From: Rhodocyclaceae bacterium
Lineage (GTDB): Bacteria; Pseudomonadota; Gammaproteobacteria; Burkholderiales; Rhodocyclaceae
Length of the DNA stretch: 64,000 bases
Assembly (NCBI GenBank): GCA_013388985.1
Contig: JACAEF010000022.1
Location: 1-64,000, forward strand
Direction of reading: 5' to 3'
A model generated the notes under the pieces. The model was not told the origin of the DNA. It saw nothing but the letters and a program-made list of their open reading frames with translations, and did no database searches. The position numbers and the translations under genes are program-made. Positions 29,321 to 59,511 of the stretch are shown in pieces. The first letter of the stretch is position 1, and every line of letters starts with the position of its first letter.

Positions 29321-29354
29321 TTGTCACAAAAATGAAATCTGGCAGAAATAGTAT
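29321..29354 (+). promoter_or_regulatory. Candidate Pho box and -10 of pstS
   Basis: TTGTCAC-AAAA-ATGAAAT (29321-29338) has the 7+4+7 spacing of a PhoB site, the second half degenerate. A -10-like TAGTAT (29349-29354) follows after exactly 10 nt, the usual PhoB-promoter geometry. Weakest of the boxes I report. Confidence 0.45.
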
Positions 29355-29424
29355 TCGAGTGGTTTCCCATGGCTTACCCGTAAGACGCCACATCCCCACT
29401 CACCAGAACTGACAGGAGCACCCC

Positions 29425-30411
29425 ATGATCGTCAAGAAAATCCTTTCGGCGCTTGGCATCGTCGCCACGACCACGTTCATCGCACAGACCGCGTGCGCCC
29501 AGGCCGTGCAGGTCGATCCCGCGCTGCCCAGCTACACCAAGGCCAGCGGTGTATCCGGCAACTTTACCAGCGTCGGCTCGGATACGCTGAACAACCTGAT
29601 GACGCTGTGGGCCGAAACCTACAAGCGTTTTTACCCCAACGTCAACATCCAGATCCAGGGCGCCGGCTCCTCCACCGCACCGCCCGCACTGATCGAGGGC
29701 GCCTCGAATTTCGGCCCGATGAGCCGCGTCATGAACGCCAAGGAAATCGAATCGTTCGAAAAGAAATATGGCTACAAGCCGACCGCCGTGCCCGTCGCCA
29801 TCGACGCCTTGGCCGTGTATGTCAACAAGGACAACCCCATCAAGGGCCTGACGATGCCTGAGGTGGATGCGATCTTCTCGCCGACCCGCAAGTGCGGCCA
29901 TCCCAATGACATCACCAAATGGGGCCAGGTCGGCCTGACCGGCGAATGGGCCGACCGGGCGATCGCGCTCTATGGCCGCAATTCGGTTTCCGGCACCTAT
30001 GGCTACTTCAAGGAGCATGCGTTGTGCAAGGGCGACTTCAAGAAAACCGTCGCCGAACAGCCGGGCTCGGCATCCGTGGTGCAGAGCGTCAGCGGCCAGT
30101 TGAATGCCATCGGCTACTCGGGCATCGGCTACAAGACCTCGGGGGTGCGCGCCCTGCCGCTCGCCAAGAAGCCCGGCGCCCCTTACGTCGAAGCCGATCC
30201 CAAACACGCGCTCGATGGCAGCTACCCGCTGGCGCGCGTGCTCTACGTCTATGTGAACAAGCGCCCCAACACCGAGCTGCCGCCGCTCGAACGCGAGTTC
30301 TTCAAGATGGTGCTCTCCAAGGAGGGCCAGCAGGTCGTCGTCAAGGATGGATTCGTGCCGCTGCCCGCCAGCATGGCGTCGAAGGCCCTGGCCGATCTGG
30401 GTATCCACTGA
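29425..30411 (+). CDS. pstS: Phosphate ABC transporter substrate-binding protein PstS
   Basis: 328 residues with a signal peptide ending [34 protein letters not shown] and [17 protein letters not shown] are PstS phosphate-binding loops. It captures Pi in the periplasm for PstCAB. Ribosome site GACAGGAG. A candidate Pho box lies 70-105 nt upstream, and a strong hairpin (30432-30454) follows the stop, which would favour PstS over downstream products. Confidence 0.95.
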
Positions 30412-31208: not shown

Positions 31209-33479
31209 ATGGAAAAGATCGAGGCCAACATCAGCAAGGTCGGAGGGTTGACCGGCCGGCGCATGACCAAGGACAAGATATTCAAGCATGTGATGACCTT
31301 CGGCGGGCTGAGTGTCATCGTCGCGATCAGCCTGATCTTTTTCTATCTCGCCAGCGTGGTCGTGCCGGTTTTCATGCCCCCCAGCCTGGGCAAGCCCGCG
31401 ACGTTCCGGTTTGCGGAAAGCGGCGCCGATACCGTCTATCTGACCAGCGAAGAACAAGCCGAGATCGGCGTACGCATGACCCTTCACGGGGAAGTGCGCT
31501 TCTTCGGCATGCAAGACGGCCACGAGATCGCCATCGACAAGGTGACTGCCGATGGCACGCCCGTCAGCTTCGCTGCGGGCGATCCGGCCAAAGGCGTGGT
31601 CGCCTATGGACTGGCGGATGGCAGGCTCGTGCTCGTCAAACCCGCCTTCGAGGTCCGCTACACGAAGGATCCGGCCCATCCCGGCAAGGATATCCGCACC
31701 ATCACGCCGCATCTGGAATATCCTCTTGGCAAGGCGCCGATCGTCATCGACCCGGAACGGCGGGCGCTGAAACGGATCGCCGTGCAATATGACGACAACG
31801 AAACCAGCGTCGCCGCGCTGACGGCGGATGGGCGCCTGTTGCTGACCAGCATCGGCAGCAAGACCAATCTGATCACCGGCGAAACGAGCGTCGAGCAGAA
31901 CACGGTCGTCCTGCCGCCGGTTCCGCATGGCGAAATCACGCAACTGTTGCTCGAAGTCAAGCAGCGCGAACTGTATGTGCTGCACGATGGCCGCTTCGTG
32001 ACCCACTACGACGTGATGGACAAGGCCAATCCCCGCCTGGTGCAGACCGTCGAGCTCTTTCCCGCGGGCGAAACGGTCGGCGCCGCGACGATGCTCTCCG
32101 GCGGCTATTCGCTGATCATCGGCTCGGACAAGGGCAACATTGCCCAATGGTTCCTGGTCCGCGATCAGGACAACAACTATCACCTCACACACATCCGCTC
32201 GTTCCCGCCGCTCGACGGCAAGATAACGGTTCTCGTGCCCGAATATTTCCGCAAGGGTTTCCTGGCCGGCGACGAACGGGGCGAACTCGGCCTCTATTAC
32301 GCCACTTCACAACGTCAGTTGCTCACCTACAGCACTGGGTCCCAGCCGGTCGTCCAGGCCGGCATCGCGCCGCGCGGCAACGCGCTGCTGGCGGAAAGCG
32401 CCGATGGCCGCCTGACCACCGCACATGTCCATAACGAATACCCGGAGGTTTCCTTCTCCGCGCTGTGGCAAAAGGTCTGGTACGAAAGCTACAGCGAGCC
32501 GGAATACGTCTGGCAATCGACCGCGGCCAACTCCGACTTCGAGCCGAAATTCAGCCTCGCGCCGCTCACGCTCGGCACGTTGAAGGCCGCCTTCTACGCG
32601 ATGCTGGTCGCCGTGCCACTGGCGGTGCTCGGCGCGATTTTCGCCGCCTATTTCATGTCGCCGAAGATGCGCGGCATCGTCAAACCGTCGATCGAGATCA
32701 TGCAGGCCCTGCCGACCGTGGTGCTTGGTTTCCTCGCCGGGCTGTGGCTGGCGCCCTACATCGACAACAATCTGGCCGGCACCCTGCTCGCCATCTTCCT
32801 GCTGCCGGTCACCTTCCTGCTCGCGGCCTGGCTCTGGCATCGGCTGCCGCAAAAGCTGACGCAACGCGTGGGGCCCGGCTGGGAAGCCGCGTTGCTGATC
32901 CCCGTGATCCTGACCGTCATGGCGGGTGCCTTGGAAATCGGCCATCCGCTCGAGGCGGTGCTGTTCGACGGCGACCTGCCCCACTGGCTCCATCATCGGC
33001 TCGGCTGGTCCTACGAGCAACGCAACTCGCTGGTGGTCGGCATCGCGATGGGGTTTGCCGTCATCCCGACGATCTTCTCGATCGCCGAGGACGCGGTATT
33101 CAGCGTGCCCAAGCATCTGACCTCCGGTTCGCTGGCCCTGGGCGCCACTCCTTGGCAGACGCTCTATCACGTCGTGCTGCTGACCGCCAGTCCCGGCATC
33201 TTCTCCGCGATCCTGATCGGGCTCGGGCGCGCCATCGGCGAGACCATGATCGTGCTGATGGCCACCGGCAACACGGCGGTGATGGATCTGTCGATCTTCA
33301 CCGGCTTTCGCACCCTGTCGGCCAACGTCGGCGTGGAAATGGGCGAAGCCGCCGTCGGCACCACCCATTACCGCCTGCTGTTCTTCTCCGCCCTGGTGCT
33401 GTTTTTGATCACCTTCGTCGCGAACACGCTGGGCGAACTGGTGCGCCAGCGGCTGCGCGAGAAATACAGTTCATTGTAA
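31209..33479 (+). CDS. pstC: Phosphate ABC permease PstC, long form
   Basis: 756 residues, twice a typical E. coli PstC. One membrane helix (about 30-52) leads into a 380-residue periplasmic domain with beta-propeller-like repeats (GLADGRLVLVK, LTADGRLLLTSIG, GSDKGNIAQWFL, ESADGRLTTAHV). The permease core follows from about 450, with EIMQALPTVVLGFLAGLW, the EAA-like loop SGSLALGATPWQTLYHVVLLTASPGIFS, and GRAIGETMIVLMATG. Long PstC with this domain is known in Pseudomonas and betaproteobacteria; its extra role is unknown. Confidence 0.94.
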   Translation: MEKIEANISKVGGLTGRRMTKDKIFKHVMTFGGLSVIVAISLIFFYLASVVVPVFMPPSLGKPATFRFAESGADTVYLTSEEQAEIGVRMTLHGEVRFFGMQDGHEIAIDKVTADGTPVSFAAGDPAKGVVAYGLADGRLVLVKPAFEVRYTKDPAHPGKDIRTITPHLEYPLGKAPIVIDPERRALKRIAVQYDDNETSVAALTADGRLLLTSIGSKTNLITGETSVEQNTVVLPPVPHGEITQLLLEVKQRELYVLHDGRFVTHYDVMDKANPRLVQTVELFPAGETVGAATMLSGGYSLIIGSDKGNIAQWFLVRDQDNNYHLTHIRSFPPLDGKITVLVPEYFRKGFLAGDERGELGLYYATSQRQLLTYSTGSQPVVQAGIAPRGNALLAESADGRLTTAHVHNEYPEVSFSALWQKVWYESYSEPEYVWQSTAANSDFEPKFSLAPLTLGTLKAAFYAMLVAVPLAVLGAIFAAYFMSPKMRGIVKPSIEIMQALPTVVLGFLAGLWLAPYIDNNLAGTLLAIFLLPVTFLLAAWLWHRLPQKLTQRVGPGWEAALLIPVILTVMAGALEIGHPLEAVLFDGDLPHWLHHRLGWSYEQRNSLVVGIAMGFAVIPTIFSIAEDAVFSVPKHLTSGSLALGATPWQTLYHVVLLTASPGIFSAILIGLGRAIGETMIVLMATGNTAVMDLSIFTGFRTLSANVGVEMGEAAVGTTHYRLLFFSALVLFLITFVANTLGELVRQRLREKYSSL

Positions 33480-33491
33480 GGATGCCTCGTC

Positions 33492-35147
33492 ATGCGTAAC
33501 TGGTTCAAGAGCGGAGAACCCTGGATCTGGATGACGGCCGGCGCGGTCGCGCTCTCGCTCGTCATGGTCTATGCGGTCGTCTGGCTCACCGCCGCCCGCG
33601 GCCTGACTCACTTCTGGCCCCATCCGGTGGTGCAAACGACTTTCACCGACAGCGATGGCAAAGCGGTGCGCGTGATCGGCGAGCTCCACGACGAAGAGGA
33701 GGTCTCGCTGCTGCGGCTGCGCGAGGCGGGCTTCAAGATCGACGGCAAGGACAAGTTCACCACGCGCTATCTCTTCAAGCTCGGCAACCGCGACATCACG
33801 GGGAACGATTTCAAATGGCTTCCGCTGCCGCTGCTCGGCAAGTTTGAGTATCCGCAGGATGTGCTGACGCTCGAACGACGCGAATGGGGCAACTTCTACG
33901 GCCATTTGAAGGAGGTCAAGGAGGAAGGCAAGGTCGTCGCCGCGGGTGCGGATGCCTGGCCCGAGCTGCAAAAACGGCTGGCACGCTCCAGCGCGCTGTT
34001 CAAGCAGATCTACCATCTGGAGAAAGTCGAGATCGGCAATGTCAATTACGCACTCGAGAAGTTGCGCCTCAAGGAGCGCAAGCTCGAACTGCAGCAGCGC
34101 CTCACCGAGGCCGACAAAGCAGCGATCGCCGCGCAGCGCGCCCAGCTTCAGGCGGAATTCCTCGCCCTGCAGGAAAAGCTGGAAAAACTGCGCCACGAAA
34201 TCAAGCGCGACAGCCTCACCGCCGAGATCGCCGACGGCCGCAGCATCGACATCCCCCTCGCCAACGTCGCCGACGCCTATCTCGCCAACGCCATGACCAC
34301 GCCCCAGAAGGTGCAGCATTATGGGCGCAAGCTGTGGGAGTTCATCTCCGACGACCCACGCGAGGCGAATACCGAAGGCGGCATCTTTCCGGCGATCTTC
34401 GGCACCGTGCTGATGGTGATCTTGATGGCGGTGCTGGTCACGCCGCTGGGCATCATGGCGGCCATCTACATGCGCGAATATGCCAAGCAGGGACCGCTGA
34501 TCCGCATCATCCGCATTTCCGTCAACAATCTCGCCGGCGTGCCATCGATCGTCTATGGTGTGTTCGGCCTCGGCTTCTTCGTCTATTTCCTCGGCCACAA
34601 CATCGACCAGCTCTTCTATCCCGAAGCAGCGCCCGCCCCGGTGTTCGGCAGCCCGGGAATTCTCTGGGCATCCCTGACGCTCGCCCTGCTCACGCTGCCG
34701 GTGGTGATCGTCGCCACCGAGGAGGGGCTGGCACGCGTGCCGCGCAGCATCCGCGAGGGCAGCCTGGCGCTCGGTGCGACCAAGGCGGAAACACTGTGGC
34801 GCACCGTGCTGCCGATCGCCAGTCCGGCGATGATGACCGGCCTGATCCTCGCCGTGGCGCGCGCCGCCGGCGAGGTGGCGCCGCTGATGCTGGTCGGCGT
34901 CGTCAAGCTGGCCCCCAGCCTGCCGCTCGACGGCAACTTTCCTTTCCTGCATCTCGAACGCAAGTTCATGCATCTGGGCTTTCATATCTACGACGTCGGC
35001 TTCCAGAGCCCCAACATCGAAGCCGCGCGGCCGCTCGTCTATGCCACGGCCTTGCTGCTGGTGCTGATCATCGTCGTGCTCAACCTGTTTGCCATCCGCC
35101 TGCGTCATCGCCTGCGCGAGAAGATGCGCGGACTCGAAGGCGTCTGA
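33492..35147 (+). CDS. pstA: Phosphate ABC permease PstA, long form
   Basis: 551 residues. After an N-terminal helix (about 17-37) comes a periplasmic insert of some 240 residues with a coiled coil rich in Glu/Lys/Leu (EKLRLKERKLELQQRL, ALQEKLEKLRHEIKRD). The permease core follows with YMREYAKQG, SVNNLAGVPSIVYGVFGLGFF and the EAA loop EGSLALGATKAETLWRTVLP. It forms the channel with PstC; both carry matching periplasmic additions that may contact each other. Starts 12 nt after pstC. Confidence 0.94.
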   Translation: MRNWFKSGEPWIWMTAGAVALSLVMVYAVVWLTAARGLTHFWPHPVVQTTFTDSDGKAVRVIGELHDEEEVSLLRLREAGFKIDGKDKFTTRYLFKLGNRDITGNDFKWLPLPLLGKFEYPQDVLTLERREWGNFYGHLKEVKEEGKVVAAGADAWPELQKRLARSSALFKQIYHLEKVEIGNVNYALEKLRLKERKLELQQRLTEADKAAIAAQRAQLQAEFLALQEKLEKLRHEIKRDSLTAEIADGRSIDIPLANVADAYLANAMTTPQKVQHYGRKLWEFISDDPREANTEGGIFPAIFGTVLMVILMAVLVTPLGIMAAIYMREYAKQGPLIRIIRISVNNLAGVPSIVYGVFGLGFFVYFLGHNIDQLFYPEAAPAPVFGSPGILWASLTLALLTLPVVIVATEEGLARVPRSIREGSLALGATKAETLWRTVLPIASPAMMTGLILAVARAAGEVAPLMLVGVVKLAPSLPLDGNFPFLHLERKFMHLGFHIYDVGFQSPNIEAARPLVYATALLLVLIIVVLNLFAIRLRHRLREKMRGLEGV

Positions 35148-35186: not shown

Positions 35187-36014
35187 ATGAATGCCAATCC
35201 CGACAAGACCCATGCGATGCAGTTCGGCGATCTCGGCCGCGCGCCGCTGGAACCGACGAACGACCATGTCCTGCACGTCGAGAGACTGAATCTGTTCTAT
35301 GGTGACAATCACGCGCTCAAGAACGTCGATCTGCAGATTCCCCGCAATCGCGTCACGGCCTTCATCGGCCCGAGCGGCTGTGGCAAATCGACACTGTTGC
35401 GCTGCTTCAACCGCATGAACGATCTGGTCGACAACTGCCGCATCGAAGGCCGGATCCTGCTCGACGGCAAGAACATCTACGACCATGACGTGAATGTCGC
35501 GCTGCTCCGCCGCCGCGTCGGCATGGTGTTCCAGAAGCCCAATCCGTTTCCCAAGTCGATCTACGAGAATGTCGCCTATGGCCTGCGTATCATGGGTGTG
35601 AATGACCGGGCCACCCTCGACGAGGCCGTCGAACGCGCGCTGCGCGGTGCGGCGCTGTGGGACGAAGTCAAGGATCGCCTCGATGAAAGTGGCATGAGCC
35701 TGTCCGGCGGCCAGCAGCAACGCCTGGTGATCGCCCGCGCCATCGCCCTGCAACCGGAAGTGCTGCTGCTCGACGAGCCCTGCTCCGCGCTCGATCCGAT
35801 CTCCACCGCGAAAATCGAAGAGTTGATCGACGAGCTGAAAAGCACATTCACGATCATCATCGTCACCCACAACATGCAGCAGGCAGCGCGCATTTCCGAC
35901 GTCACCGCCTATATGTATCTGGGCGAGCTGATCGAATTCGGTGCGACCGACACCATCTTCATCAAACCTGCGGACAAGCGCACCGAGGATTACATCACCG
36001 GCCGCTTCGGCTAG
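35187..36014 (+). CDS. pstB: Phosphate ABC transporter ATPase PstB
   Basis: 275 residues. Walker [10 protein letters not shown] at residues 61-69, signature [16 protein letters not shown], Walker [14 protein letters not shown] and switch His in [33 protein letters not shown] is PstB-specific. It powers Pi import and, with PhoU and PhoR, reports external Pi. The gene lies 39 nt after pstA and 13 nt before phoU. Confidence 0.97.
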
Positions 36015-36027
36015 AGAGGAGAAGCAT

Positions 36028-36738
36028 ATGCACGAGCACATTTTCAAGCGTTTCGATGCCGAGCTCGACGATATCCGCGCCCGCATCACCCAGATGGGCG
36101 GCCTGGTCGAGGAGCAGATGCGCGCCGCGATGACCGCCCTGGGCGGCGAGGACCGCGAACTCATCGAACTGGTCATCGCCCGCGATGCCGGGGTCGATCA
36201 GATGGAACTCTCCATCGACGCTGCCTGCGCGCACATCATCGCGCGCCGGCAGCCCACGGCGATCGACCTGCGCATGATCATGGCGGTGAGCAAGATCGTC
36301 ACCGACCTGGAGCGCATCGGCGACGAAGTGAAAAAGATCGCCAAGGGTGCACGCAAGATTTTCGAACAGGGCATGGGCGGTTGCCTGACGCAGGTCACCG
36401 AGATCCGCTATGTCGGCGAGCGCGTCCTGGACATGCTGCACGACGTGCTCGATGCCTTCGTGCGCGTGGATGCGGATGCCGCTCTGGCGATCATCAGGCG
36501 CGACAAGGAGGTAGACGAGAGTTTCCGCTCCATCGTGCGCCAGCTGGTCACCTTCATGATGGAGGATCCACGCACGATCAGCACCGCGCTCGACATCATT
36601 TTCATCGCCCGCTCCGTCGAGCGTATCGGCGACCACACCAAGAACATCGCCCGCGACGTCATTTTCATCGCCAAAGGGGAGGACGTGCGACACACCGTCC
36701 TGGGCAAGCAGGGAATGGAGGGAGAAAACGCGCAATGA
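36028..36738 (+). CDS. phoU: PhoU, phosphate signalling regulator
   Basis: 236 residues from ATG 36028 with ribosome site AGAGGAG. Two three-helix PhoU repeats, each with the metal-binding E/DxxxD pattern (KIVTDLERIGDEVKKIA and ARSVERIGDHTKNIA). It couples Pst activity to PhoR and keeps PhoB off when Pi is plentiful. The stop overlaps the phoB start (ATGA). Confidence 0.95.
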   Translation: MHEHIFKRFDAELDDIRARITQMGGLVEEQMRAAMTALGGEDRELIELVIARDAGVDQMELSIDAACAHIIARRQPTAIDLRMIMAVSKIVTDLERIGDEVKKIAKGARKIFEQGMGGCLTQVTEIRYVGERVLDMLHDVLDAFVRVDADAALAIIRRDKEVDESFRSIVRQLVTFMMEDPRTISTALDIIFIARSVERIGDHTKNIARDVIFIAKGEDVRHTVLGKQGMEGENAQ

Positions 36739-37430
36739 GTGGTCAGCCACGCATTCTGGTGGTCGAGGACGAAGCCGCGATCCAGGAGCTGCTGCGTTAT
36801 TCCCTGGAACAGGCGTCATTCGAGGTCGTCGTGCTCGGTAGCGCCGAAGCCGCGCTCGAGGAAATCCGCCAACGCCTGCCCGCGCTGGTCCTGCTCGACC
36901 TGATGCTGCCCGGCATGTCGGGCAGCGCCCTGGCGAAACGCCTGCGCAGCGAAGCGCGCACGCGCGAATTGCCGATCATCATGGTCACGGCGCGCGCCGA
37001 CGAGACCGACCGCATCCAGGGCCTCGACCTCGGCGCCGACGACTATGTCAGCAAACCTTTCTCACCGAAGGAGCTGATCGCCCGCATTCGTGCCGTATTG
37101 CGCCGGCGCGCGCCGCACCTCGCCGGCGACCCCGTGGAGATCGGCCCGGTGCGTCTCGATCCCGCCTCGCGCACGGTCACCTGCAATGGCCAACCCATCG
37201 CGCTGGGCCCGACGGAATTCGAACTGCTGCAATATCTGATGACCCACCCGAACCGGGCCCTGACGCGCGACCAGCTGCTGAATGCCTTGCGCGGCGACCA
37301 TCGCTTTCTCGAGGATCGCACCATCGACGTCTATATCCGGCGCCTGCGCGCCGGGCTCGGCCCGGTCGGCGACGCGTTGATCGAGACGGTGCGTGGCGTC
37401 GGCTACAAACTGACGAGCCCGGCAGGATGA
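36735..37430 (+). CDS. phoB: PhoB response regulator
   Basis: 231 residues. Receiver domain with phospho-acceptor D55 in LLDLMLPG, plus ILVVEDE and KPFSPKEL; OmpR-type winged helix with LGPTEFELLQYLMTHPNR and RTIDVYIRRLR. Phosphorylated PhoB binds Pho boxes made of 7-bp repeats with 11-bp period, of which several candidates occur in this window. Overlaps phoU and phoR by ATGA at both ends. Confidence 0.96.
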   Translation: MSGQPRILVVEDEAAIQELLRYSLEQASFEVVVLGSAEAALEEIRQRLPALVLLDLMLPGMSGSALAKRLRSEARTRELPIIMVTARADETDRIQGLDLGADDYVSKPFSPKELIARIRAVLRRRAPHLAGDPVEIGPVRLDPASRTVTCNGQPIALGPTEFELLQYLMTHPNRALTRDQLLNALRGDHRFLEDRTIDVYIRRLRAGLGPVGDALIETVRGVGYKLTSPAG

Positions 37431-38665
37431 ACGCCGCGGCGCTGGCGCTGTTGCTGCTGGCGCTCGCTGGCGCGCTCGCCATCGCTCTGGCGCTGCAGAT
37501 CCGCCAGCGCAACGCGCTGCGCGACTGGCTCATCGCCCCCGATCTGCACCCGCTGCCCGATGGCCGTGGCGTCTGGTATGAAATCTTTTCGCGCCTGCGC
37601 AAAACACGCAAGCAGGAACAGTTGCGGCGTGCCGAGCTTGGCAATGCGCTGGAACGCTTTCGTCTCGCGGTCCAGTCCCTGCCCGAAGGCGTCATGCTGC
37701 TCGACACGCAGATGCACATCGAATGGCTGAACGATGCCGCTTGCCGCCAGTTCGCTCTCGATGCGGTGCGCGATCCCGGCACGCTGGCGGTGCAACTGAT
37801 CCGCCAGAGCGAATTCCGTCAGCTGATCGACAGCTATCGCGCCCGTCCCGTCAAGCAGTCGACCTTGCTCCGTGCAGGCAGCAATGGCGAGGAGCGGGTT
37901 CTCTCGGTGACGTTGCTGCCTTTTGCGGCGACGGGAACCCTGCTCGTCGCCACCGACGTCACCGAACAGGTGCGCAGCGAGCTCGGACAGCGTGATTTCA
38001 TCGCCAACGTCTCGCACGAGCTGCGCACGCCGCTGACCGTGATCACCGGCTTTCTCGAGCAGTTCAATGGCGACGACCCGCCCACGGGCGAGATGGCGCG
38101 CAGGTTTCACCGCCTGATGGCCGAACAGGCGGAGCGCATGAACCGGCTGATCGCCGATCTGCTGACCTTGTCCAGTCTCGAAAGCAGCGGCCAGCCGCCG
38201 CGCGACGAGGTGATCGATGTGCCAGCGCTGCTCGAAACCCTGCGCAACGAGGCGCTCGCGCTCTCCGCCGGCAGACATGCCATCGACATTACCGATTCTT
38301 CGGCCGGCAAACTGCGCGGCAGCGCCGACGAATTGCGCAGCGCCTTCGGCAACCTGGTGTTCAACGCCGTGCGCTACACGCCGGCGGGCGGCAAGATCAC
38401 AATGGCCTGGCGCCTGATCGACGGCCAACCGACCTTTGCCGTGACCGATACCGGCATCGGCATCCCGCCCGAGCACATCCCGCGCCTGACGGAGCGTTTC
38501 TACCGCGTCGACAAGGGCCGTTCGACCGCGGTCGGCGGCACCGGGCTCGGCCTGGCGATCGTCAAGCACGTGCTCGTCCGCCATGGCGGCATGCTGAAAA
38601 TCGATTCGGTCCCGGGCAAGGGCAGCATCTTCACCGTGGCCCTGCCAGCCGACCGGCGGGCCTGA
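37427..38665 (+). CDS. phoR: PhoR sensor histidine kinase
   Basis: 412 residues. A short N-terminal membrane segment (1-23), a basic linker, a PAS domain (about 85-185) and the kinase core. The H box is FIANVSHELRTPLTVITGF with H197; N box GNLVFNAVRYTP; G boxes DTGIGIPPEHIP and GGTGLGLAIVKH. It phosphorylates PhoB when Pst signals Pi shortage. Only one clear membrane helix, as in PhoR types with no real periplasmic sensor. Confidence 0.94.
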   Translation: MNAAALALLLLALAGALAIALALQIRQRNALRDWLIAPDLHPLPDGRGVWYEIFSRLRKTRKQEQLRRAELGNALERFRLAVQSLPEGVMLLDTQMHIEWLNDAACRQFALDAVRDPGTLAVQLIRQSEFRQLIDSYRARPVKQSTLLRAGSNGEERVLSVTLLPFAATGTLLVATDVTEQVRSELGQRDFIANVSHELRTPLTVITGFLEQFNGDDPPTGEMARRFHRLMAEQAERMNRLIADLLTLSSLESSGQPPRDEVIDVPALLETLRNEALALSAGRHAIDITDSSAGKLRGSADELRSAFGNLVFNAVRYTPAGGKITMAWRLIDGQPTFAVTDTGIGIPPEHIPRLTERFYRVDKGRSTAVGGTGLGLAIVKHVLVRHGGMLKIDSVPGKGSIFTVALPADRRA

Positions 38666-38741
38666 GGCAGCGCAGAGAGCGGCGAAGGACGCCACCGACA
38701 GGCCCTGTTCTCTGCCAATGGATCGAAGGCAGGGTGTCCAG

Positions 38742-38775
38742 TTGTCATCCATTTGTCAACTTCCCGGCCTAAGCT
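38742..38775 (+). promoter_or_regulatory. Pho box and -10 before the EAL-CBS-GGDEF gene
   Basis: TTGTCAT-CCAT-TTGTCAA (38742-38759) is a close match to two PhoB half-sites with 11-bp period. TAAGCT (38770-38775) follows after exactly 10 nt, and the gene starts 21 nt later. Confidence 0.65.
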
Positions 38776-38796
38776 GCAGGCTCGGTCAATGCCCGT

Positions 38797-40716
38797 ATGC
38801 TCATGTCGAATCGAAACAGCCTCAGCCCTTTTCCCGCCGAGGCCCGCCTCGCGCCTCATCATGGCGGCCTGGCCCGGCAAATCATCGCGGCGGCAGCGCA
38901 GGAATCGCTGTGCGAAGAGTCCCCCGCCTATCGGCTCGAATGGCGGAACCGGATCAGTGCGGAAGACCTGCACGCGTTTTCCCGAGTTTTCGAGCGTCAG
39001 CAACTGCATGCGGTGTTCCAGCCCATTCTCGACCTGTCACAGCGGCGTTTCCTCGGCTATGAGGGCCTGATCCGCGGTCCTGCGGATACGCCCTTGCACA
39101 GCCCGCAGCTATTGCTCGAGCTCGCCGCGGCCAGCCAGTTGACAGTCGAATTCGAGCGCCTGTGCCGGGAGACGATCCTGCGCGATTTCGCGGCCCGAAA
39201 GCTCGATGGCCTGCTGTTCCTCAACGTCAGCGCCGGCGCCCTCGCCGATCCACGCTTCCTGGATGGCGCGACCACGCGCTTGTTTCAGGAGCTGCGCCTG
39301 CGGCCTGGTCAGATCGTCATCGAGATCACCGAAAACCAGCAGGTCGACGACTTGGCCGCCTTGCAAGAAGTGTTGCAACACTACCGCGGCCAGGGCTTCC
39401 AGATCGCGATCGACGACCTCGGCGAAGGTTTTTCCAATCTGCGCATGTGGTCCGAGATCCACCCGGAATACGTCAAGATCGACCAGCACTTCATCCGCAA
39501 CATCGCCAACGACCCGATCAAGTTCCGTCTGGTGCGGGCCATGCGCGACATCGCCGAGGCGACCCATGCGCGCCTGATCGCCGAGGGCATCGAAACCGAA
39601 AGCGAATTGATCACGATCCGCGACCTGGGCATCGCGCATGGCCAAGGATTTCTGATCAGCCGGCCCGCCATCCAACCCGAAACGGCCCCTGGCAGCGAGG
39701 TTCGTCGCCTGCTCGACCAGTCCCGGCTGATCGTCTTCCCGAACCAGCCCGGCCAAGCGGGCGCCAAAGTGCGCCAGCTCTTGCAAGCCGTCGAGCCGGT
39801 GCTGCCCTCCACCTGCAATCAACGAGTGCTCGAGCGTTTCGAGGCCTCCCCCAGCCTGATCGCGTTGCCCGTCGTCACCGCGGAAGGCATACCGGTCGGC
39901 CTGATCAATCGCTACACCTTGACCGACCGCTTCGCCCGCCCTTACCGACGCGAGATCTACGGCAAGCAGCCCTGCACCCGCTTCATGAACGATGCGCCGA
40001 TCAAGGTCGATCATGCCCTGCCGATCCAGGAACTCGGCCAGCTGCTCGGCCGCGCGCAGCCGCAGCAACTGATCGACGGCTTCATCATCACCGAAGACGG
40101 TCGTTATCTGGGCGTCGGCAGCACCCAGGCGCTGATGGGTCTGATCACCGAGTTGCAAATCCGCGCGGCACGCTATGCCAATCCGCTCACCCAACTGCCG
40201 GGCAACGTCCCGATCAATGAGCACATCGACCGTCTGCTGCACAACGAGGTGGGCTTCACCGCGTGTTATTGCGACATCGACCACTTCAAGCCGTTCAACG
40301 ACAGCTACGGTTATCGCACCGGCGACCAGATCATCCAGCAAGTCGCCCTGCTGCTGAGCCGCCACTGCGATCCCCAGCTCGATTTCGTCGGCCATATCGG
40401 CGGCGATGATTTCATCTTGCTGATGCAAAGTAGCGACTGGGAAGCGCGTTGCCGCGCCATCATCGCCGACTTCGATCAGGCGCGCATCGCCTACCTGATG
40501 CCCGAACACGTGGATCAATCAGGCTATTTCGCCGAGAACCGCCGCGGCGAAAAGGTGTTCCATGCCTTGCCCTCCCTGTCGATCGGGGCGTTGACGGTCG
40601 TGCCGCACCATTTCGAGAGCCACCGCGAGCTTTCCGTCGCCTTGACCGCCGCGAAGAAAGAAGCCAAGAAGATTCCTGGCAGCGCACTGTTCATCGAACG
40701 CCGCCGCCAACCCTGA
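38797..40716 (+). CDS. EAL-CBS-GGDEF cyclic-di-GMP protein, probably Pho-regulated
   Basis: 639 residues with no membrane helix. The EAL domain comes first (motif variant EGL at residue 89, then NVSAGAL, EITENQQ, IDDLGEGFSNL). A CBS-like region follows (about 300-460), then a GGDEF domain with variant GGDDF at residue 535. The inhibitory-site Arg is absent (PQLD where RxxD is expected). Core EAL residues look largely kept, so phosphodiesterase activity is more likely than cyclase. CBS domains often bind adenine nucleotides. A Pho box upstream puts it under PhoB. A second start, ATG 38803, is possible. Confidence 0.88.
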   Translation: MLMSNRNSLSPFPAEARLAPHHGGLARQIIAAAAQESLCEESPAYRLEWRNRISAEDLHAFSRVFERQQLHAVFQPILDLSQRRFLGYEGLIRGPADTPLHSPQLLLELAAASQLTVEFERLCRETILRDFAARKLDGLLFLNVSAGALADPRFLDGATTRLFQELRLRPGQIVIEITENQQVDDLAALQEVLQHYRGQGFQIAIDDLGEGFSNLRMWSEIHPEYVKIDQHFIRNIANDPIKFRLVRAMRDIAEATHARLIAEGIETESELITIRDLGIAHGQGFLISRPAIQPETAPGSEVRRLLDQSRLIVFPNQPGQAGAKVRQLLQAVEPVLPSTCNQRVLERFEASPSLIALPVVTAEGIPVGLINRYTLTDRFARPYRREIYGKQPCTRFMNDAPIKVDHALPIQELGQLLGRAQPQQLIDGFIITEDGRYLGVGSTQALMGLITELQIRAARYANPLTQLPGNVPINEHIDRLLHNEVGFTACYCDIDHFKPFNDSYGYRTGDQIIQQVALLLSRHCDPQLDFVGHIGGDDFILLMQSSDWEARCRAIIADFDQARIAYLMPEHVDQSGYFAENRRGEKVFHALPSLSIGALTVVPHHFESHRELSVALTAAKKEAKKIPGSALFIERRRQP

Positions 40717-40745: not shown

Positions 40746-41864
40746 CTATTGCTTGTCCGGCGCGAAATTGGTAACACCCATCTCCGCAAATGTCGCCTCG
40801 ATGGCCGCGACGGCCTGCCGGATCGTCGCCGCGCCGATCACGCCGATGCAGCCGACGCGGAAGGTCTCCACCGTCGTCAGCTTGCCGGGATAGAGGATGA
40901 AACCCTTCTCCCGCACCTTGCGGTAGAAGATCTTGAAGTCGTAGGCCGCATCGGCCGGCGCATGGAAGGTGACGATGATCGGCGCCTGCACGGCGTCGGC
41001 GAGGAAAGTCTGGAAGCCCAGCGCGCGCATTCCAGCCACGAGGGTCGCGCAGTTCTCGGCATAGCGCGCCAGACGCGCCGGCTGGCCGCCCTCCTCGCGA
41101 TACTGGTCGATGGCGGCGCGCAGCGCAGCGACGACGTGGGTCGGCGGCGTGAAGCGCCACTGGCCGGTCTTCTGCATATAGATCCACTGGTCGTGTAGAT
41201 CCATCGCAAGCGAATGGCAGTTGCCCGCCGCCGCTGCCAGCGCTTCGCGGCGGACAACAACGAAACCCATGCCGGGCACGCCTTCAAGGCACTTGCCCGA
41301 GGCGGCGATCAGCGCGTCGAAGGGCATGCTCTGCGCATCGATGGGAATCGCGCCGAAGGAGCTCATCGCATCGACGATCAGCCGGCGGCCGCGCCGTGCA
41401 ACCGTGTAGGCGATCTCGGGCAGCGGATTGAGGATGCCGGTGCCGGTCTCGCAATGCACCTGGGCGACGTGGGTGATCGCCGGATCGGCGGCGAGCGCCG
41501 CGTCGATGCACGCCGGATCGGCCGGTTCGTCCTCGCGGAAATCGAGCGCCACGGCCGGACGGCCGAGATAGTCGAGGATGCGCAGGATGCGCTGGCAGTA
41601 GGCGCCGTTGTTCGGCACCAGCACCTTGCCGTCCTTCGGCACCAGGGTGCCCAAGGCCGCCTCGACGGAGAACGTGCCCCTGCCCTGCAGCGGCACGCAG
41701 ACATGCGTTTCGCCCGCGCCGGCGATCTCGGCGATGTCGCGGCAGACCGAGGCGGTCAGCTCGTTGAAGGCGCCATCCCACGAACCCCAGTCGCGCAGCA
41801 TGGCCTGCTTGGTCGCTGCGGAGGTCGTCAGCGGTCCGGGGGTCAGCAAAACGGGATCGTTCAT
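40746..41864 (-). CDS. phnW: 2-aminoethylphosphonate:pyruvate aminotransferase PhnW
   Basis: 372 residues from ATG 41864 (ribosome site GGAGA). [14 protein letters not shown] is the PhnW N-terminus; [12 protein letters not shown] and the PLP lysine K191 in [12 protein letters not shown] mark the class V aminotransferase. It converts 2-aminoethylphosphonate plus pyruvate to phosphonoacetaldehyde and alanine. It is last in the phnC-D-E-A-dehydrogenase-phnW operon, 19 nt after the dehydrogenase gene. No phnX is seen, so phosphonoacetaldehyde should go through PhnY and PhnA. Confidence 0.95.
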
Positions 41865-41883
41865 GTTGGTCTCCAAACGGTTT

Positions 41884-42975
41884 TCAGGGCACGATGGCGG
41901 CGCGCAGCACGCGGCGGGCGGCGGCATCGGCCATCGCCTCGTTCGCGGCGTCGAGCGGATACTTGCCATCGACGAGGGCGTGGAAGGGGAAGCGCGTGCG
42001 GTGTGCCGCGACGAATTCGAGCGCCTCGACGAGATGGCGCGGGTGGTAGTTATGCACGCCGCGCAGGCAGAGGAGTTTCTTGAGGATCAGGTTGGCGTCG
42101 ATGATTGCCATCGCGCGCGGATTGACCACACCGCCGAGCACATAGGTGCCGCCGATGCGCAGCATCTCGAGCCCGGCCGGGATGACCGCGGGTGTGCCGC
42201 AGACCTCGATGACCGCGTCGGCGCCGGCGGGCGGGCACTGCGCGCGGATTTCCGCCGGGTCGGCGGCGGCATCGAAAGCCAAATCGACACCGAAACGGTA
42301 GGCCATCTCGCGCCGCGCCGGATCGGGATCGAGGCCGATCACGCGACGGGCGCCGCGCGCCTTGGCGATGGCGGCGCCGTAAAGTCCCAACAGGCCAAGC
42401 CCCTGCACGACGACGGTGTGACCGATGCGGATGTTCGCCGCCTCGGTGACTGCGATCATCGTCGCCACGCCGCAGTTGAGCGGCGTCGCCTCCTCGTCGG
42501 TGAGTTCGTCCGGCAGGCGCAGGATCCACGAGCGCGGCAGGATGTAGCAGTAATCGCCGAAACCGCCGTGATGGTGCGGCGGCTCGGCGACCGCTCGATG
42601 GCCGTATTTGTCGACGCCGGCCGCCTTCTGCGGCAGATCGAGCACTGCGCCGAAATAGTCTCCTTCGGGGGGGATGAAATATTCGCTCCAGGTCACGCGG
42701 TCGCCGAGGGCAAGCGGATCGCCGCGCATGTCCTGCGTGACGCCTTCGCCGAGCGCTACGATGTCGCCGATGATCTCGTGCCCCAACACGCCGGGGCACG
42801 GGTTCGGCCGCTGCCCCTGCCAGGAATGGATGTCCGAGCGGCAGATCGTCGCCATGCGAATCTTGACGAGCGCTTCGCCAGGCGCGGGCGGCCGCAACGG
42901 GTAAGACTCGATGCGAAACGGCGCATTCGGCGCGTCATAGACGGCCAGACGGCCGATGGCGGGAAGGGCAGCCAT
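41884..42975 (-). CDS. Zinc alcohol dehydrogenase linked to phosphonate catabolism
   Basis: 363 residues of the medium-chain dehydrogenase family: catalytic-zinc residues in [11 protein letters not shown] and [11 protein letters not shown], Rossmann loop [10 protein letters not shown], then GLDPDP. It matches the family annotated as phosphonate-catabolism-associated alcohol dehydrogenase (the HpnZ-type family, named from gene neighbourhood). I do not know a demonstrated substrate. Placed 1 nt after phnA and before phnW, it could oxidise a hydroxylated phosphonate to an aldehyde entering the PhnY-PhnA route; that is inference. The usual four-Cys structural zinc cluster is not obvious. Confidence 0.85.
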
Positions 42976-42976
42976 T

Positions 42977-44221
42977 TCAAACGACTCCGTTGATCGCGTA
43001 GTCGAAGATCTGGTGGCTTTTCAGCCCGCCAGCCGCGCGCTGCGCAAAGTCGGCGCTGACGGGACGGCTCAGGATGAAGGGCACGCGCGCCTCGGTCACC
43101 GCGCCGTGGCTGCGCAGCCGCGCGTCGGCGAGGTTCGAGAGGTCGTGGTCGGCTTGCGAGGCGCCGATCACCGTGCCGATGTCGCCAATCACCGCGACGT
43201 CGCCCTCGCGGTCGGGCGGCAGCTCGAAGCGCGCGCAGACCTCCTCTTTCGTGAGCGCCAGCTCAATGCCTGGGATGCCCTTGACGAGGTCGATGATCGC
43301 CGCCGGGCTCGCCCTGCCGCCGCGGCACCAGACGCGCACGAAGCCGCCCAGCGCACCGTGGTGACGCACGAAGGCGTCGGTGATCGGGCAGATGACTTTC
43401 GTGTCGCCGGCGCCGAAGGCGCGGTCGAGGATGTCCTGCAGGAAGATCACGTTCGGCGTGCCATCCGGCTTCGACTTGTCGTTCATGCCGTGGTCGGCCG
43501 TCAGCGCGACCGTGGCGCCAAGCGAAGCGAGCCGGCCGAAGCAGTCGTCGATGCGGCGATAGAACTCGCTGGAGACCGGGTCGCCCGGCGCGTGCTTGTG
43601 CTGGATGTAATCGGTCAGCGACAGGAACATCAGGTCGGGCCGCCGCGTCTCCAGCAGCTTGATGCCAGCTTCCAGCACGAAGAGCGACAGATCCATCGAA
43701 TACATGTCCGGCTGCGGCATGCCGACGAGCGCCAGCACGTTCTCGATGCCGTTCTCGGTCAGCGTGCAGCGGTCGGCGAACTCGGACGAGAAACTCACGT
43801 TGCCACGCTGAAGATCGAGGTCCTTGCCGAGCTGCTTGCGCAGCTTGTCCTTGGCGGTGATCGACACGACCTTCGCGCCGGCATCGGCGAAGGTGGCGAG
43901 GATCGTGCGGCTCCTCAACAGTTCCGGGCCGGTCATGACGACCGCTTCGCCCGCCTCGTTGAGGTAGAAGTTGCCGGAGATGCCATGCACCGATGGCGGC
44001 GCACCGGTGATGATCGACATGTTGTTCGGGCAGGTGAAGCTCGGCACCGTGCCCTCGGCGATGGTCGAGAACCCTTCGCGCATGAAACGTGCGATGTTGG
44101 GAATGATGCCGTCTCGGAGCCCTTGTTCGATGTAGGCAGGATCGCCGCCGTCGATGCAGACGACGACGGTAGGACGCGACGGCCAGCGGTATTGAACGCC
44201 GTTGAGTGAAAGCATGTTCAT
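42977..44221 (-). CDS. phnA: Phosphonoacetate hydrolase PhnA
   Basis: 414 residues of the alkaline-phosphatase superfamily. Two-zinc site: CIDGGDPAYI, nucleophile Thr in VPSFTCPNN, SLTDYIQHKHAPGD, TADHGMNDK and LRSHGAV. It splits phosphonoacetate into acetate and phosphate, the final C-P cleavage. The start is 7 nt after phnE; ATG 44215 is an alternative. The C-terminal 60 or so residues include a dispersed-element copy translated as RPVSADFA. Confidence 0.92.
   Translation of the reverse strand: MNMLSLNGVQYRWPSRPTVVVCIDGGDPAYIEQGLRDGIIPNIARFMREGFSTIAEGTVPSFTCPNNMSIITGAPPSVHGISGNFYLNEAGEAVVMTGPELLRSRTILATFADAGAKVVSITAKDKLRKQLGKDLDLQRGNVSFSSEFADRCTLTENGIENVLALVGMPQPDMYSMDLSLFVLEAGIKLLETRRPDLMFLSLTDYIQHKHAPGDPVSSEFYRRIDDCFGRLASLGATVALTADHGMNDKSKPDGTPNVIFLQDILDRAFGAGDTKVICPITDAFVRHHGALGGFVRVWCRGGRASPAAIIDLVKGIPGIELALTKEEVCARFELPPDREGDVAVIGDIGTVIGASQADHDLSNLADARLRSHGAVTEARVPFILSRPVSADFAQRAAGGLKSHQIFDYAINGVV
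43046..43068 (-). repeat. Dispersed 23-bp element, copy 8 (C-terminal coding)
   Basis: The top strand reads AAAGTCGGCGCTGACGGGAC then GGC. Inside phnA about 25-30 codons before its stop, translated within SRPVSADFA. Confidence 0.88.
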
Positions 44222-44228
44222 GTAAGGT

Positions 44229-45026
44229 TCAGATCGCCCATTGACGGATGCGGGCGGAGACGAGGTCGATCAGGGTGACCGAGACGATGATGATGATGAG
44301 CACGGCGGCGGTCTGCGCGTATTCGAAGCCGCGGATCACCTCGTGCAGGACGACGCCGATGCCGCCCGCGCCGACGATGCCGAGCACGGAGGCCGAGCGC
44401 ACGTTCGACTCGAAGCGGTAAAGCGAGTAGGAAATCCACAGCGGCAGCACCTGCGGAATCACGCCGTAGAGGATTTCCTCGAGCGCGTTCGCACCGGTGG
44501 CGCGCACGCCCTCGACGGGACGCGGGTCGATAGCCTCGACCGCCTCGGCGAAGAGCTTGGCAAGTACACCGGTCGTATGCACCCAGAGCGCCAGCACGCC
44601 AGCGAAGGGCCCGAGGCCGACCGCGACGATGAAGAGCATCGCGAACACCATTTCGTTGATGGCGCGGCACGCGTCCATCAGGCGGCGCATCGGCTGATAG
44701 ACCCAGACCGGGGCGAGGTTCTCGGCGGACATCAGGCCGCAGGGAATCGCGCAGACGATGGCAAGCACCGTGCCCCAAATGGCGATATGCACGGTGACGA
44801 CCATCTCCTCGAGATAGATGCGCCACTCGTGAAAGTCCGGCGGAAAGAATTCCCGGGCGAAGACGCGCATGTTGTCCGAATCCTTGAGCAGGTCGAACGG
44901 CCGCATGTCGGCACCTTGCCACGACCAGATCAGGACGAGGAAAAAGACGCCCCAGGCGAGGGTCGCACCGATGCCGGCGGGCGGCGGACGCAGCGAGACT
45001 TCTTGGACGGAAGGTACGGTAGCCAT
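44229..45026 (-). CDS. phnE: Phosphonate ABC permease PhnE
   Basis: 265 residues with about six membrane helices. [20 protein letters not shown], the EAA loop [21 protein letters not shown] and [14 protein letters not shown] match PhnE. It imports phosphonate with PhnC/PhnD. ATG 45026 stands directly after a terminator-like hairpin with a T-run and no recognisable Shine-Dalgarno site, so expression is probably much lower than phnD. Confidence 0.92.
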
Positions 45027-45031
45027 GATCG

Positions 45032-45064
45032 AAAAAGCGCCGGCAGACGCGAGCCCGCCGGCGC
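45032..45064 (-). terminator. Intrinsic-terminator-like hairpin between phnD and phnE
   Basis: On the minus strand GCGCCGGC / GCCGGCGC (8-bp stem, 12-nt loop) is followed at once by TTTTT. It sits inside the operon 5 nt before the phnE start, so it should act as a partial terminator. Confidence 0.7.
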
Positions 45065-45075
45065 ACGAGGGAGGA

Positions 45076-46044
45076 TCACTTCATCTGCTTGGCGAGCTCG
45101 GCGAGCTTGGCGTCGATCTCGGCGAGCTTCGCTTTCTTGTCGGCCTCGGACATATTGGCGTCGTTCTCGAACTTCTTGCGATCCTTGAACAGCTCGAGCT
45201 GGCGGATCGGCAAGAGCTGCGCGTCGGTCGAGGCCTTGAAGCCGGCGAGGCGATACATGTTCTTGAGGATCTCCTTCTCGCGCTCGTTCTTGCCGTAATT
45301 GACGCAGAAGTCCTGGATCTTCTTCTTGAGATCGGCCGGCAGATCCTTGCGATAGACGAGCGGGTCGCGCGGGATCAGCGGCGAAGTCCAGAGGATGCGA
45401 ATCTGTTCGAGCTTCTCGGGCGCCTTTTCCTTCATCTTCTGCGTCATCTCGCTGTTGCTGGTCGCGACATCGACCTGCTTGTTCAGCACGGCGAGGAAGT
45501 TGCCCTCGTGGTTGGCCGAGCGCACCACCTTGAAGTGCGTCTTCGGATCGAGGTTGTTGAGCGTGAAGACGTAATAGGTCGGCACCAGCGTGCCGGAGGT
45601 CGAGGACGGATCGCCGATGCCGAAGCTCATGTCCTTGCCGTTTTTCAGCACCTGGTCGAGCGAGGTGATGCCGCTATCTTTGTGGGTGATGAGGTAGGAG
45701 TAGTAGCCCGGCGTACCGTCGAGATCGACGAACTGCACGAAGACCTCGCCGTTGGCTCGATCCACGGCCTCGATGGCCGACTTGTTGCCATACCAGGCGA
45801 TCTGCACCTTGTTGAAGCGCTGCGCCTCGATGATGCCGGCGTAGTCGGTGGCGTAGAAGCCATTGACCTTGACGCCGATGGCCTTCGACATGTCTTCGAG
45901 GAAGGGTTCCCACATCTGCTTCAAGGCGCCCGCCTTCTCGGTGGCGATGATGCCGAAGTTGAGTTCCTTGATTTCCTGGGCCTGAACGTTCAGGCCCAGG
46001 ACGACGGCCGCGGCCGCCAGCAGGGTTTTCAGATTGCGCAACAT
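45076..46044 (-). CDS. phnD: Phosphonate-binding periplasmic protein PhnD
   Basis: 322 residues. Signal peptide [21 protein letters not shown]; mature [54 protein letters not shown] and VATSNSEM are PhnD-family ligand loops. The C-terminus is a charged helix ([19 protein letters not shown]). It binds 2-aminoethylphosphonate or a relative. A 28-bp perfect palindrome lies in the end of its signal-peptide coding region. Ribosome site AAGGAGAA. Confidence 0.93.
45974..46001. promoter_or_regulatory. Perfect 28-bp palindrome in the phnD signal-peptide codons
   Basis: Arms TCCTGGGCCTGAAC (45974-45987) and GTTCAGGCCCAGGA (45988-46001) are exact reverse complements with no spacer. In mRNA this would form a very stable stem 40-70 nt into phnD; as DNA it is a symmetric site. 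Confidence 0.9.
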
Positions 46045-46077
46045 GGATTCTCCTTGGGTGAAGGGTTGAGAGGGGAT

Positions 46078-46929
46078 TCAGGCCGCCAGGAGCGGCGCCA
46101 TGCCTTTGTCGGCGGGTATCTTCAGGGCGGGACTGTCGAGCATCATGCCGAACAGCTCCTCGGCGTCGGCGCCATAGAGCTCGCCGAGCAATTGCGGCGT
46201 CAGCGCCGCGGAAGGGCCGTCATAGACCACGCGGCCCCGGTGCAAGGCGACGGTGCGCCGGCAATACTTGATCGCGAATTCGACCTGGTGCAGCGAAACG
46301 ACGACGGTGCAGCCGCGCTCGCGGTTCATCTGCGCCAGCAACTCCATCACGTTTCGCGCCGATTCCGGGTCGAGCGAGGCGATCGGCTCGTCGGCGAGAA
46401 TCACCTTGGCTTCCTGCACCAGGCAGCGCGCCAGCGCCGCGCGCTGCTGCTGGCCGCCGGAAAGCGTGGCGGCGCGCTGCCAGGCGAACTTCTCGATGCC
46501 GACCGCGGCCAAGGCCTCCAGCGCCCGCTGGCGCTCGCTCACCGTGAAACGCATCAGCAAGCTGCGCCAGACGGGCACGCGATAGAGCAGCCCGACCAGC
46601 ACATTGGTGACGACCGGCAGGCGATTGACGAGATTGAACTGCTGGAAGACAAAGCCAATCTGGGCGCGCAAGGCGCGGATGTCGGGCGCGATGCTGCCAT
46701 CCTGTTGCACGACGCGATCGAGCACGGCGATCTCGCCGGCATCGGCGGCGACGAAGCCGGCGATATGGCGCAGCAGCGTCGACTTGCCGGAACCCGATGC
46801 GCCGATCAGGGCGACCATCTCGCCCGTCGCGACGGTCAGATTGACGTCGTCGAGCGCCTTGCAGCTAGGAAACGTCTTGCCGAGGCGGCGAATCTCGATG
46901 GCGGGCGGCGTCGGCTGCGAATTCATCAT
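46078..46929 (-). CDS. phnC: Phosphonate ABC transporter ATPase PhnC
   Basis: 283 residues from ATG 46929 (ATG 46926 or TTG 46947 possible). Walker [10 protein letters not shown], signature [15 protein letters not shown], Walker [14 protein letters not shown], switch His in [29 protein letters not shown] is typical of PhnC. First gene of the operon, reading away from phnR across a shared regulatory gap that holds a candidate Pho box and a GntR-type palindrome. Confidence 0.94.
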
Positions 46930-46962
46930 TTGGCTTTCGTCAATCAAACTGCAACATTCACG

Positions 46963-46996
46963 AATCTATAATCGGGCCGTTACAGATTGTTGACAA
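46963..46996 (-). promoter_or_regulatory. Candidate Pho box and -10 of the phnC operon
   Basis: On the minus strand TTGTCAA-CAAT-CTGTAAC (46996-46979) has PhoB spacing; CTGTAAC fits the E. coli Pho half-site consensus fully. TAGATT (46968-46963) follows after exactly 10 nt. An alternative sigma-70 reading is TTGTCA, 17 nt, GATTAT. Confidence 0.6.
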
Positions 46997-47000
46997 TCTG
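46983..47000. promoter_or_regulatory. GntR-type operator in the phnC-phnR gap
   Basis: CAGATTGT-TG-ACAATCTG is a perfect inverted repeat with the TTGT-n2-ACAA core common to FadR/FCD-type GntR regulators. It overlaps the candidate Pho box, so PhnR and PhoB may compete here. Confidence 0.75.
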
Positions 47001-47055
47001 CAATCTAGCCAGACCCGATTGTTCGCCGCCGACGTTGCAGGACGATGAAACAAAT

Positions 47056-47739
47056 ATGAACGCCCACGCCTCCGCCATCGCGCTCTTGCAGAGCCGCTCC
47101 CTGCCCGGACTGATCCAGCAGCAACTCGAAAGGATGATTCTCGACGGCGAGCTGCCGCCCGGCAGCCAGCTCACCGAAATTCCGCTCGCCGCCCGCCTCG
47201 GCGTCTCGCGCGGCCCCGTGCGCGAGGCGTTTCGCGGCCTTGAGGAGAAGGGCCTCGTGCGCGTCGAGAAGAACCGCGGCGTCTTCGTGCGCACCATCGC
47301 GCCCGACGAAGCCGATGCGATCTACGAGGTGCGCCTCGCGCTCGAGGAACTGATCGTCAGGAAACTCGCCGCCGTGCCGGATGCGGTACGCGCCGCCGGT
47401 CTCGAGAAGCTGCTCGCCGAAGCGGAAAAGTTCGCAAAGAAGGCCAACTTCGCCGCCTGTCACGAGTGCAACGTCGCCTTTCACGACCGCCTCGTCTGCC
47501 TGACCGGCAATCCCGCGCTGATCGACAGCTACCGGCGGCTCGTCGGCGAACTATCCCTCTTTCGCCACCAGGCGCACGCCAGCATCCCCGACGCATCGAG
47601 CCTGCGCGCCTCGGTCGCCGACCATCGCGCGATCCTCGCCGCGCTGTGCGCGGGCGAACGCGCCATGGCCGCGCGGCTGCTACGCCGCCACGTCGAGGCG
47701 AGCCGCAAGCGGCTGCAACGCCTGCTCAAAAACCAATAG
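47056..47739 (+). CDS. phnR: GntR-family (FCD type) regulator of phosphonate use
   Basis: 227 residues from ATG 47056. Winged helix at the N-terminus (GSQLTEIPLAARLGVSRGPVR) and an FCD ligand domain with metal-binding pattern (EVRLALEELIVR, HECNVAFHDRLV, VADHRAILAAL, RRHVEAS). Placement between phnC and phnY matches the regulator family associated with phosphonate utilisation in betaproteobacteria. Likely effectors are 2-aminoethylphosphonate or phosphonoacetaldehyde. An upstream frame to 46987 runs through the operator and is not used. Confidence 0.9.
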   Translation: MNAHASAIALLQSRSLPGLIQQQLERMILDGELPPGSQLTEIPLAARLGVSRGPVREAFRGLEEKGLVRVEKNRGVFVRTIAPDEADAIYEVRLALEELIVRKLAAVPDAVRAAGLEKLLAEAEKFAKKANFAACHECNVAFHDRLVCLTGNPALIDSYRRLVGELSLFRHQAHASIPDASSLRASVADHRAILAALCAGERAMAARLLRRHVEASRKRLQRLLKNQ

Positions 47740-47748
47740 GAGAAACCC

Positions 47749-58141: not shown

Positions 58142-58175
58142 GGCCGGTCTCCTTTTCTCACGTTGGGATGCGCGC

Positions 58176-59490: not shown

Positions 59491-59511
59491 TGCCGTCGCA
59501 TGCTGCGCGGC

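Follow-up and report, generated by a model that had tools for sequence, protein, structure and literature searches.

The window, by which we mean the whole stretch of 64,000 nucleotides of Rhodocyclaceae DNA that was analysed, carries a gene for a protein with an EAL domain, a CBS pair and a GGDEF domain immediately behind phoR (Table 1). The genes upstream of it are, in order, a PstS-like gene, two permease genes, pstB, phoU, phoB and phoR. The spacer between the end of phoR and the start of the EAL-CBS-GGDEF gene is 131 bases long and contains, in order, the direct repeat TTGTCATCCATTTGTCAA, the ten bases CTTCCCGGCC and the hexamer TAAGCT. The first-pass annotation had described a Pho box with a -10-like hexamer ten nucleotides on between these two genes, and both elements were confirmed at the positions it gave. 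The hexamer at -10 in pstS promoters of the family is mostly TAGACT; TAAGCT occurs in the pstS promoter of locus L177. No clear Shine-Dalgarno sequence was seen by eye before the ATG at 38797.

Table 1. Features of the window that bear on the EAL-CBS-GGDEF gene and its predicted promoter
Feature	Position	Strand	Basis
PelD, candidate c-di-GMP receptor, RxxD (RGLD)	5030-6388	+	PelD_GGDEF, 4e-24
Pho promoter match of the window's own pstS-like gene	29321-29356	+	pstS-trained matrix, 15.6 bits
PstS-like phosphate-binding protein	29425-30411	+	PF12849
Two pst operon permeases (pstC 31209-33479, pstA 33531-35147)	31209-35147	+	BPD_transp_1
pstB	35187-36014	+	Domain match; named by context
phoU	35941-36738	+	Pfam match; codon model favours start at 36028
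phoB	36735-37430	+	Pfam Response_reg, Trans_reg_C; named by context
phoR	37427-38665	+	Pfam PF11808, HisKA, HATPase_c
Pho box TTGTCAT-CCAT-TTGTCAA	38742-38759	+	Two TTGTCAW half-sites, 11 bp apart
-10 hexamer TAAGCT	38770-38775	+	10 nt past the box
EAL-CBS pair-GGDEF protein, 639 aa, RapA/PA3258 type	38797-40716	+	Pfam, alignment, predicted fold

The Pho-box consensus of Escherichia coli was used in the scans, and the site at 38742 departs from this consensus, which is that of E. coli and not of the window's family, at three positions. When up to three mismatches were allowed, one site was found in the window against 2.9 expected in shuffled sequence, and 74 sites were found in the genome against 31 for a reversed control pattern. 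The consensus is too loose and proves nothing alone, and a local motif was therefore learned from pstS promoters of the family. The best consensus match of the genome (one mismatch) was rejected as a candidate; it lies on a 4.7-kb contig inside a reading frame for which no link to phosphate was found.

The training set consisted of 40 PstS-like genes from other genomes of the family, hand-picked by span and length, and a pstC match was present in the fetched stretch for 38 of them. Expectation maximisation on the 40 upstream regions yielded, in the 8 best of 150 random starts, the motif TGTcACa...cTGTAACA, a Pho box, in three phases. A 36-column matrix was built from the sites of 37 of the 40 regions, with TAgACT ten bases past the box; the EAL-CBS-GGDEF gene was absent from the training. 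When both strands of the window were scanned with this box-plus-hexamer matrix, the site at 38742 was the top match (21.3 bits), followed by a minus-strand site at 50403 (19.2 bits) and the window's own pstS promoter, and lower-ranked matches stood before phosphonate, PhoX and lipid genes. With the 18-column box alone, 38742 dropped to sixth in the window. The second-ranked site, at 50403, has no obvious target gene just downstream. In the 2.9-Mb genome, a box-plus-hexamer pattern, one position of which had been widened so that the site at 38742 fits, matched exactly once, at 38742, and three times with at most one mismatch, compared with no match for the control.

Promoter conservation was examined upstream of homologs, which are encoded by 68 of 150 genomes of the family (E 1e-60), with a threshold of 10 bits on the 36-column matrix. 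A site at or above this threshold precedes 33 of the 40 orthologs with at least 48% identity, compared with 2 of 1040 sequences obtained by dinucleotide shuffling of the family regions. Such sites were also present before 5 of 11 family homologs below 48% identity and, at class level, before 14 of 29 homologs (0/580 shuffles); the box alone was found before 17 of these 29, against about 17 of 580 shuffles. Seven of the 40 orthologs lack a 10-bit site (L006, L008, L017, L021, L026, L203 with 7.8 bits, and L208), as does a group of five rows, L217-L221. Box scoring covered 10 of the 33 family rows below 48% identity, two of the seven other rows of the genus search (L036-L040 being set aside, as was the partial L072) and 29 of the 32 other class-level genomes. 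Of the 33 accepted sites, two (L206 and L211) are located 434-438 nt before the gene. In L206, L211, L073, L075 and L076, all Sulfuritalea-like, box-like repeats were seen about 410-440 nt before the conserved start, from which perhaps a long leader or an intervening gene separates them.

Sixteen named records were inspected as well, at least three of which (L071, L079, L081) are not independent of the other set. With one or the other matrix, eleven of the 16 score at least 10 bits, including Rhodocyclus gracilis, Gallionella, Sterolibacterium, Paludibacterium and Mitsuaria; those below 10 bits are L075 (Sulfuritalea), L078 (Burkholderiales), L281 (Pseudomonas aeruginosa, 9.9 bits), L283 (Caballeronia) and L284 (Comamonadaceae). 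On the protein tree, the presence of the box needs 12 changes, compared with 19.5 for shuffled labels, and none of 500 shuffles was as low by this quick method.

Genes elsewhere served as controls. None of 41 called genes that have 150 bases or more in front of them, taken from 30 EAL loci elsewhere whose flanks of at most 1500 bases often miss the gene start, reached 10 bits, and neither did any of 58 internal pstC, pstA, pstB, phoU and phoR genes. In the pho-linked loci, phoB (3/14) and a GNAT gene (5/6) also carried 10-bit sites, as did 16 of 152 genes without a match to window proteins, at least some of which are pstS, so that the pho-linked neighbourhood is no clean background. The box could be a coincidental fit to a loose consensus, as the counts obtained with the E. 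coli pattern would allow. Against this stand the independently learned pstS matrix, the conservation before orthologs and the gene controls, together with the single exact genomic match, albeit to a pattern partly fitted to the site. We regard such a coincidence as extremely improbable; on the sequence evidence, the box at 38742 is more than a chance match.

The genomic surroundings of the orthologs also point towards phosphate. Among orthologs with at least 48% identity from the 150 genomes, 22 of 39 have a listed pstB no more than 25 kb away, compared with 3 of 148 other EAL genes, the latter being the best 150 listed places in a 61-genome subset after two places in a genome without a listed pstB had been dropped. 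The remaining orthologs are on another contig than pstB (11), farther away on the same contig (5) or in a genome without a listed pstB (1). Below 48% identity, 6 of 33 homologs have a listed pstB at 25 kb or less. Direct adjacency to phoR was rejected as a conserved feature, as it is absent in all 12 other phoR loci that were read; in the nearest other arrangement (L118), the gene is 1.4 kb from phoR on the other strand. In the closest relative, a member of the same genus whose protein is 67% identical, the gene is located elsewhere in the genome and a site of 18.6 bits is kept. An ortholog with at least 60% identity is present in only 2 of 19 genomes of the genus, including the window's own. 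The window protein pairs with that of the 67% relative inside the family clade of the tree, so the gene looks vertically inherited.

These loci also bear on how the gene is transcribed. Expression might come mainly from read-through of phoU, phoB and phoR, the box being a minor or silent promoter; the genes share a strand, the spacer has 131 bases, and no intrinsic terminator was found in 38600-38860. However, the box is kept before 33 of the 40 orthologs even though the gene does not directly follow phoR in the 12 other loci, and the spacing from box to -10 hexamer here is typical of pstS promoters. We therefore consider predominant read-through improbable. The earlier proposal that PhoB controls this c-di-GMP enzyme gene is strongly supported by the promoter conservation (33/40), the linkage to pst genes and the precedent of RapA.

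The protein has the domain order of the RapA/PA3258 type, with EAL at about residues 61-290, the CBS pair at about 318-450 and GGDEF at about 463-635. Pfam recognised the EAL (7.9e-51) and GGDEF (1.1e-15) domains, and the CBS match was below threshold (19.9 against a cut-off of 24 bits). Because EAL-containing chains were among the 50 best rows of a fold search with the whole protein, residues 318-462 were folded alone. The resulting model had a mean pLDDT of 89 and its best PDB matches were CBS pairs, first AcuB (AMP/ADP/ATP) and then CBSX2, so that the predicted fold supports a CBS pair in the middle region. The full-length model (pTM 0.41) gives no domain packing.

Ten residues that we take to be those of metal binding, substrate binding and catalysis in EAL domains are all present (E89, N143, E176, E179, D206, D207, K227, E263, E266 and Q283). 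D206 is found in 78 of 78 homologs and each of the other nine in 77 of 78, the sole exception being L270; this count drops L001 (the window's own gene, identical to P0001), L211 (partial) and L269 (which stops inside). L270, from a class-level genome, is the only homolog with degenerate EAL residues, and it likewise lacks a Pho box. At the second position of the EAL motif, 44 of the 78 homologs have A, 32 have G and 2 have S, so EGL is ordinary. GGDDF is invariant in all 78, as are D493, F497, K498, N501 and D502, and is therefore a family signature rather than decay. The first-pass annotation had read EGL and GGDDF as variants that made the activity uncertain; the motifs are there as described, and neither is unusual among the homologs. 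The conserved GGDDF suggests that the GGDEF domain has a function, and with the GTP-site residues kept, the protein may also have diguanylate cyclase activity.

The direction of the net activity was weighed against the known homologs. PA3258 is an EAL-CBS-GGDEF protein homologous to RapA, which showed apparent phosphodiesterase activity in a heterologous host and, once that activity was disabled, apparent diguanylate cyclase activity (PMC12900916). A lowering of c-di-GMP is likelier here, judging by sequence and analogy, because the EAL residues are intact in the window protein and in 77 of 78 homologs and because PA3258 appears to be a phosphodiesterase. The gene could instead be Pho-controlled and encode a net maker of c-di-GMP, or a switchable enzyme in which the GGDDF cyclase works and the CBS pair decides which activity wins. 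The invariant GGDDF and GTP-site residues and the apparent cyclase activity of disabled PA3258 fit such an enzyme, but the EAL catalytic residues are kept almost throughout, intact PA3258 acted as a phosphodiesterase, and RapA is described as lowering c-di-GMP in vivo (PMC3032545). We judge a net synthesising or switchable enzyme unlikely, though less so than read-through. Thus, of the earlier suggestion that phosphate shortage lowers c-di-GMP, the Pho promoter stands and the lowering is the likelier direction, with the apparent cyclase activity of disabled PA3258 as a caveat.

Taken together, we hold it highly probable that this gene encodes a Pho-controlled c-di-GMP enzyme of the RapA/PA3258 type, predicted to hydrolyse c-di-GMP when phosphate is short. 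In the proposed sequence of events, PhoR would phosphorylate PhoB at low phosphate, and PhoB~P would bind the direct repeat, which takes the place of a -35 element. Sigma-70 polymerase would thereby be brought to TAAGCT and the EAL-CBS-GGDEF protein would be made. Its EAL domain would then hydrolyse c-di-GMP, and the smaller pool would favour loss of sessility. The CBS pair between the two domains probably tunes the activity to an adenine nucleotide.

Several outputs are conceivable, and Pel, acting through PelD, is one candidate. PelD had been placed in the same window as the EAL-CBS-GGDEF gene, and it is indeed there; the link between Pel and this gene is their co-location in the window, in which nothing joining the two was found. 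PelD belongs to a Pel gene cluster at 70-10305 that also includes PelB, PelG and a DUF3492 glycosyltransferase, which would be PelF. Another c-di-GMP enzyme of the window, a PAS-GGDEF-EAL protein, is encoded at 17151-19292 on the minus strand.

Further genes related to phosphate were observed in the window. Behind the EAL-CBS-GGDEF gene, positions 40746-50021 hold a cluster for utilisation of 2-aminoethylphosphonate and phosphonoacetate, with genes for PhnW, an alcohol dehydrogenase, phosphonoacetate hydrolase, a permease, PhnD, PhnC, a GntR regulator, phosphonoacetaldehyde dehydrogenase and a TIGR03340-like protein; this cluster also occurs near phoR in a relative (L117). Two Pho-box matches (box 16.1 and 15.1 bits) at 46961-47051 on the minus strand, in the space separating phnC from the divergent GntR gene, suggest that phosphonate use is under PhoB control. 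Positions 54407-61477 encode a PhoX-like phosphatase, an acyltransferase, a GNAT protein, two glycosyltransferases and a metallophosphoesterase. The Pho box is matched in this stretch at 56391(-), 58209(-), 58243(+) and 59471(+). By its gene content, this set looks like phosphate-saving lipid remodelling, and parts of it are also found beside phoR in other members of the genus.

The Rhodocyclaceae include bacteria of phosphate-removing water treatment. The wiring from phosphate to c-di-GMP established with RapA in a single pseudomonad may be general, given that sites precede 33 of the 40 orthologs in the family and 14 of the 29 homologs from the class, and for many organisms it predicts that phosphate starvation changes c-di-GMP and attachment. 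The CBS pair is a possible second input and, with the breadth of conservation, the part most worth following. A further, rather speculative proposal, to which we give about the same low credence as to a switchable enzyme, is that membership of RapA-type EAL-CBS-GGDEF proteins in the Pho regulon is widely conserved among Beta- and Gammaproteobacteria, and that these proteins act as two-input gates. PhoB would cause the protein to be made at low phosphate, and the CBS pair, reading AMP, ADP or ATP, would set hydrolysis or synthesis of c-di-GMP. If this were true, phosphate supply and energy charge would jointly decide attachment. A search of the open-licence literature, outside which most subscription journals lie, found no paper on the breadth of conserved Pho control.

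The closest comparisons are with proteins of Pseudomonas. Aligned with a P. aeruginosa protein (L281), the window protein is identical in 225 of 585 columns (38%; 58% similarity; residues 55-633; E 6e-140). The gene of this protein is preceded by one for a C-terminal processing peptidase, presumably PA3257, and the protein is very probably PA3258. The two proteins have the same domain order, homology along their full length and the sequence GHIGGDDF in common, whereas the motif EAL in PA3258 is EGL in the window protein. The PA3258 gene also differs in its surroundings, with no pho gene among nine features of a 7.8-kb stretch. Upstream of it, GCGTCAT-AAAA-CAGTCAT-GGGA-CTGTCGT presents three TGTCAT-like half-sites in 11-bp steps, a region that the two matrices score modestly (9.9 and 5.6 bits). 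PA3258 has been called a putative orthologue of RapA (PMC9394441), and the likeness of the window protein to RapA by sequence runs through the published homology between PA3258 and RapA.

RapA of P. fluorescens Pf0-1 is described as being made at low phosphate through PhoB acting on an upstream Pho box, and as depleting c-di-GMP, which leads to release of LapA through LapD and LapG (PMC3032545). The window gene likewise encodes a c-di-GMP enzyme with intact EAL catalytic residues behind an upstream Pho box, and control by PhoB is predicted. The two differ in that the target of RapA is the adhesin LapA, reached through LapD-LapG, whereas the genome of the window had no match to LapG (PF06035) at E 0.001, and LapG was rejected as the output here; in addition, the RapA-type gene here adjoins phoR. 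AcgA-AcgB of Vibrio cholerae are c-di-GMP enzymes that PhoB may regulate (PMC12351708), a possible likeness in control. The promoter resembles Pho promoters of pstS in its two TGTCA-type half-sites, its 11-bp steps and its -10 hexamer ten nucleotides on, and differs in the second half-site, which is TTGTCAA here and CTGTAAC in the pstS consensus of the family. The window gene belongs to a known kind, and the wiring from Pho to c-di-GMP is already known from RapA; what is new here is the breadth of conserved Pho control and the place of the gene next to phoR.
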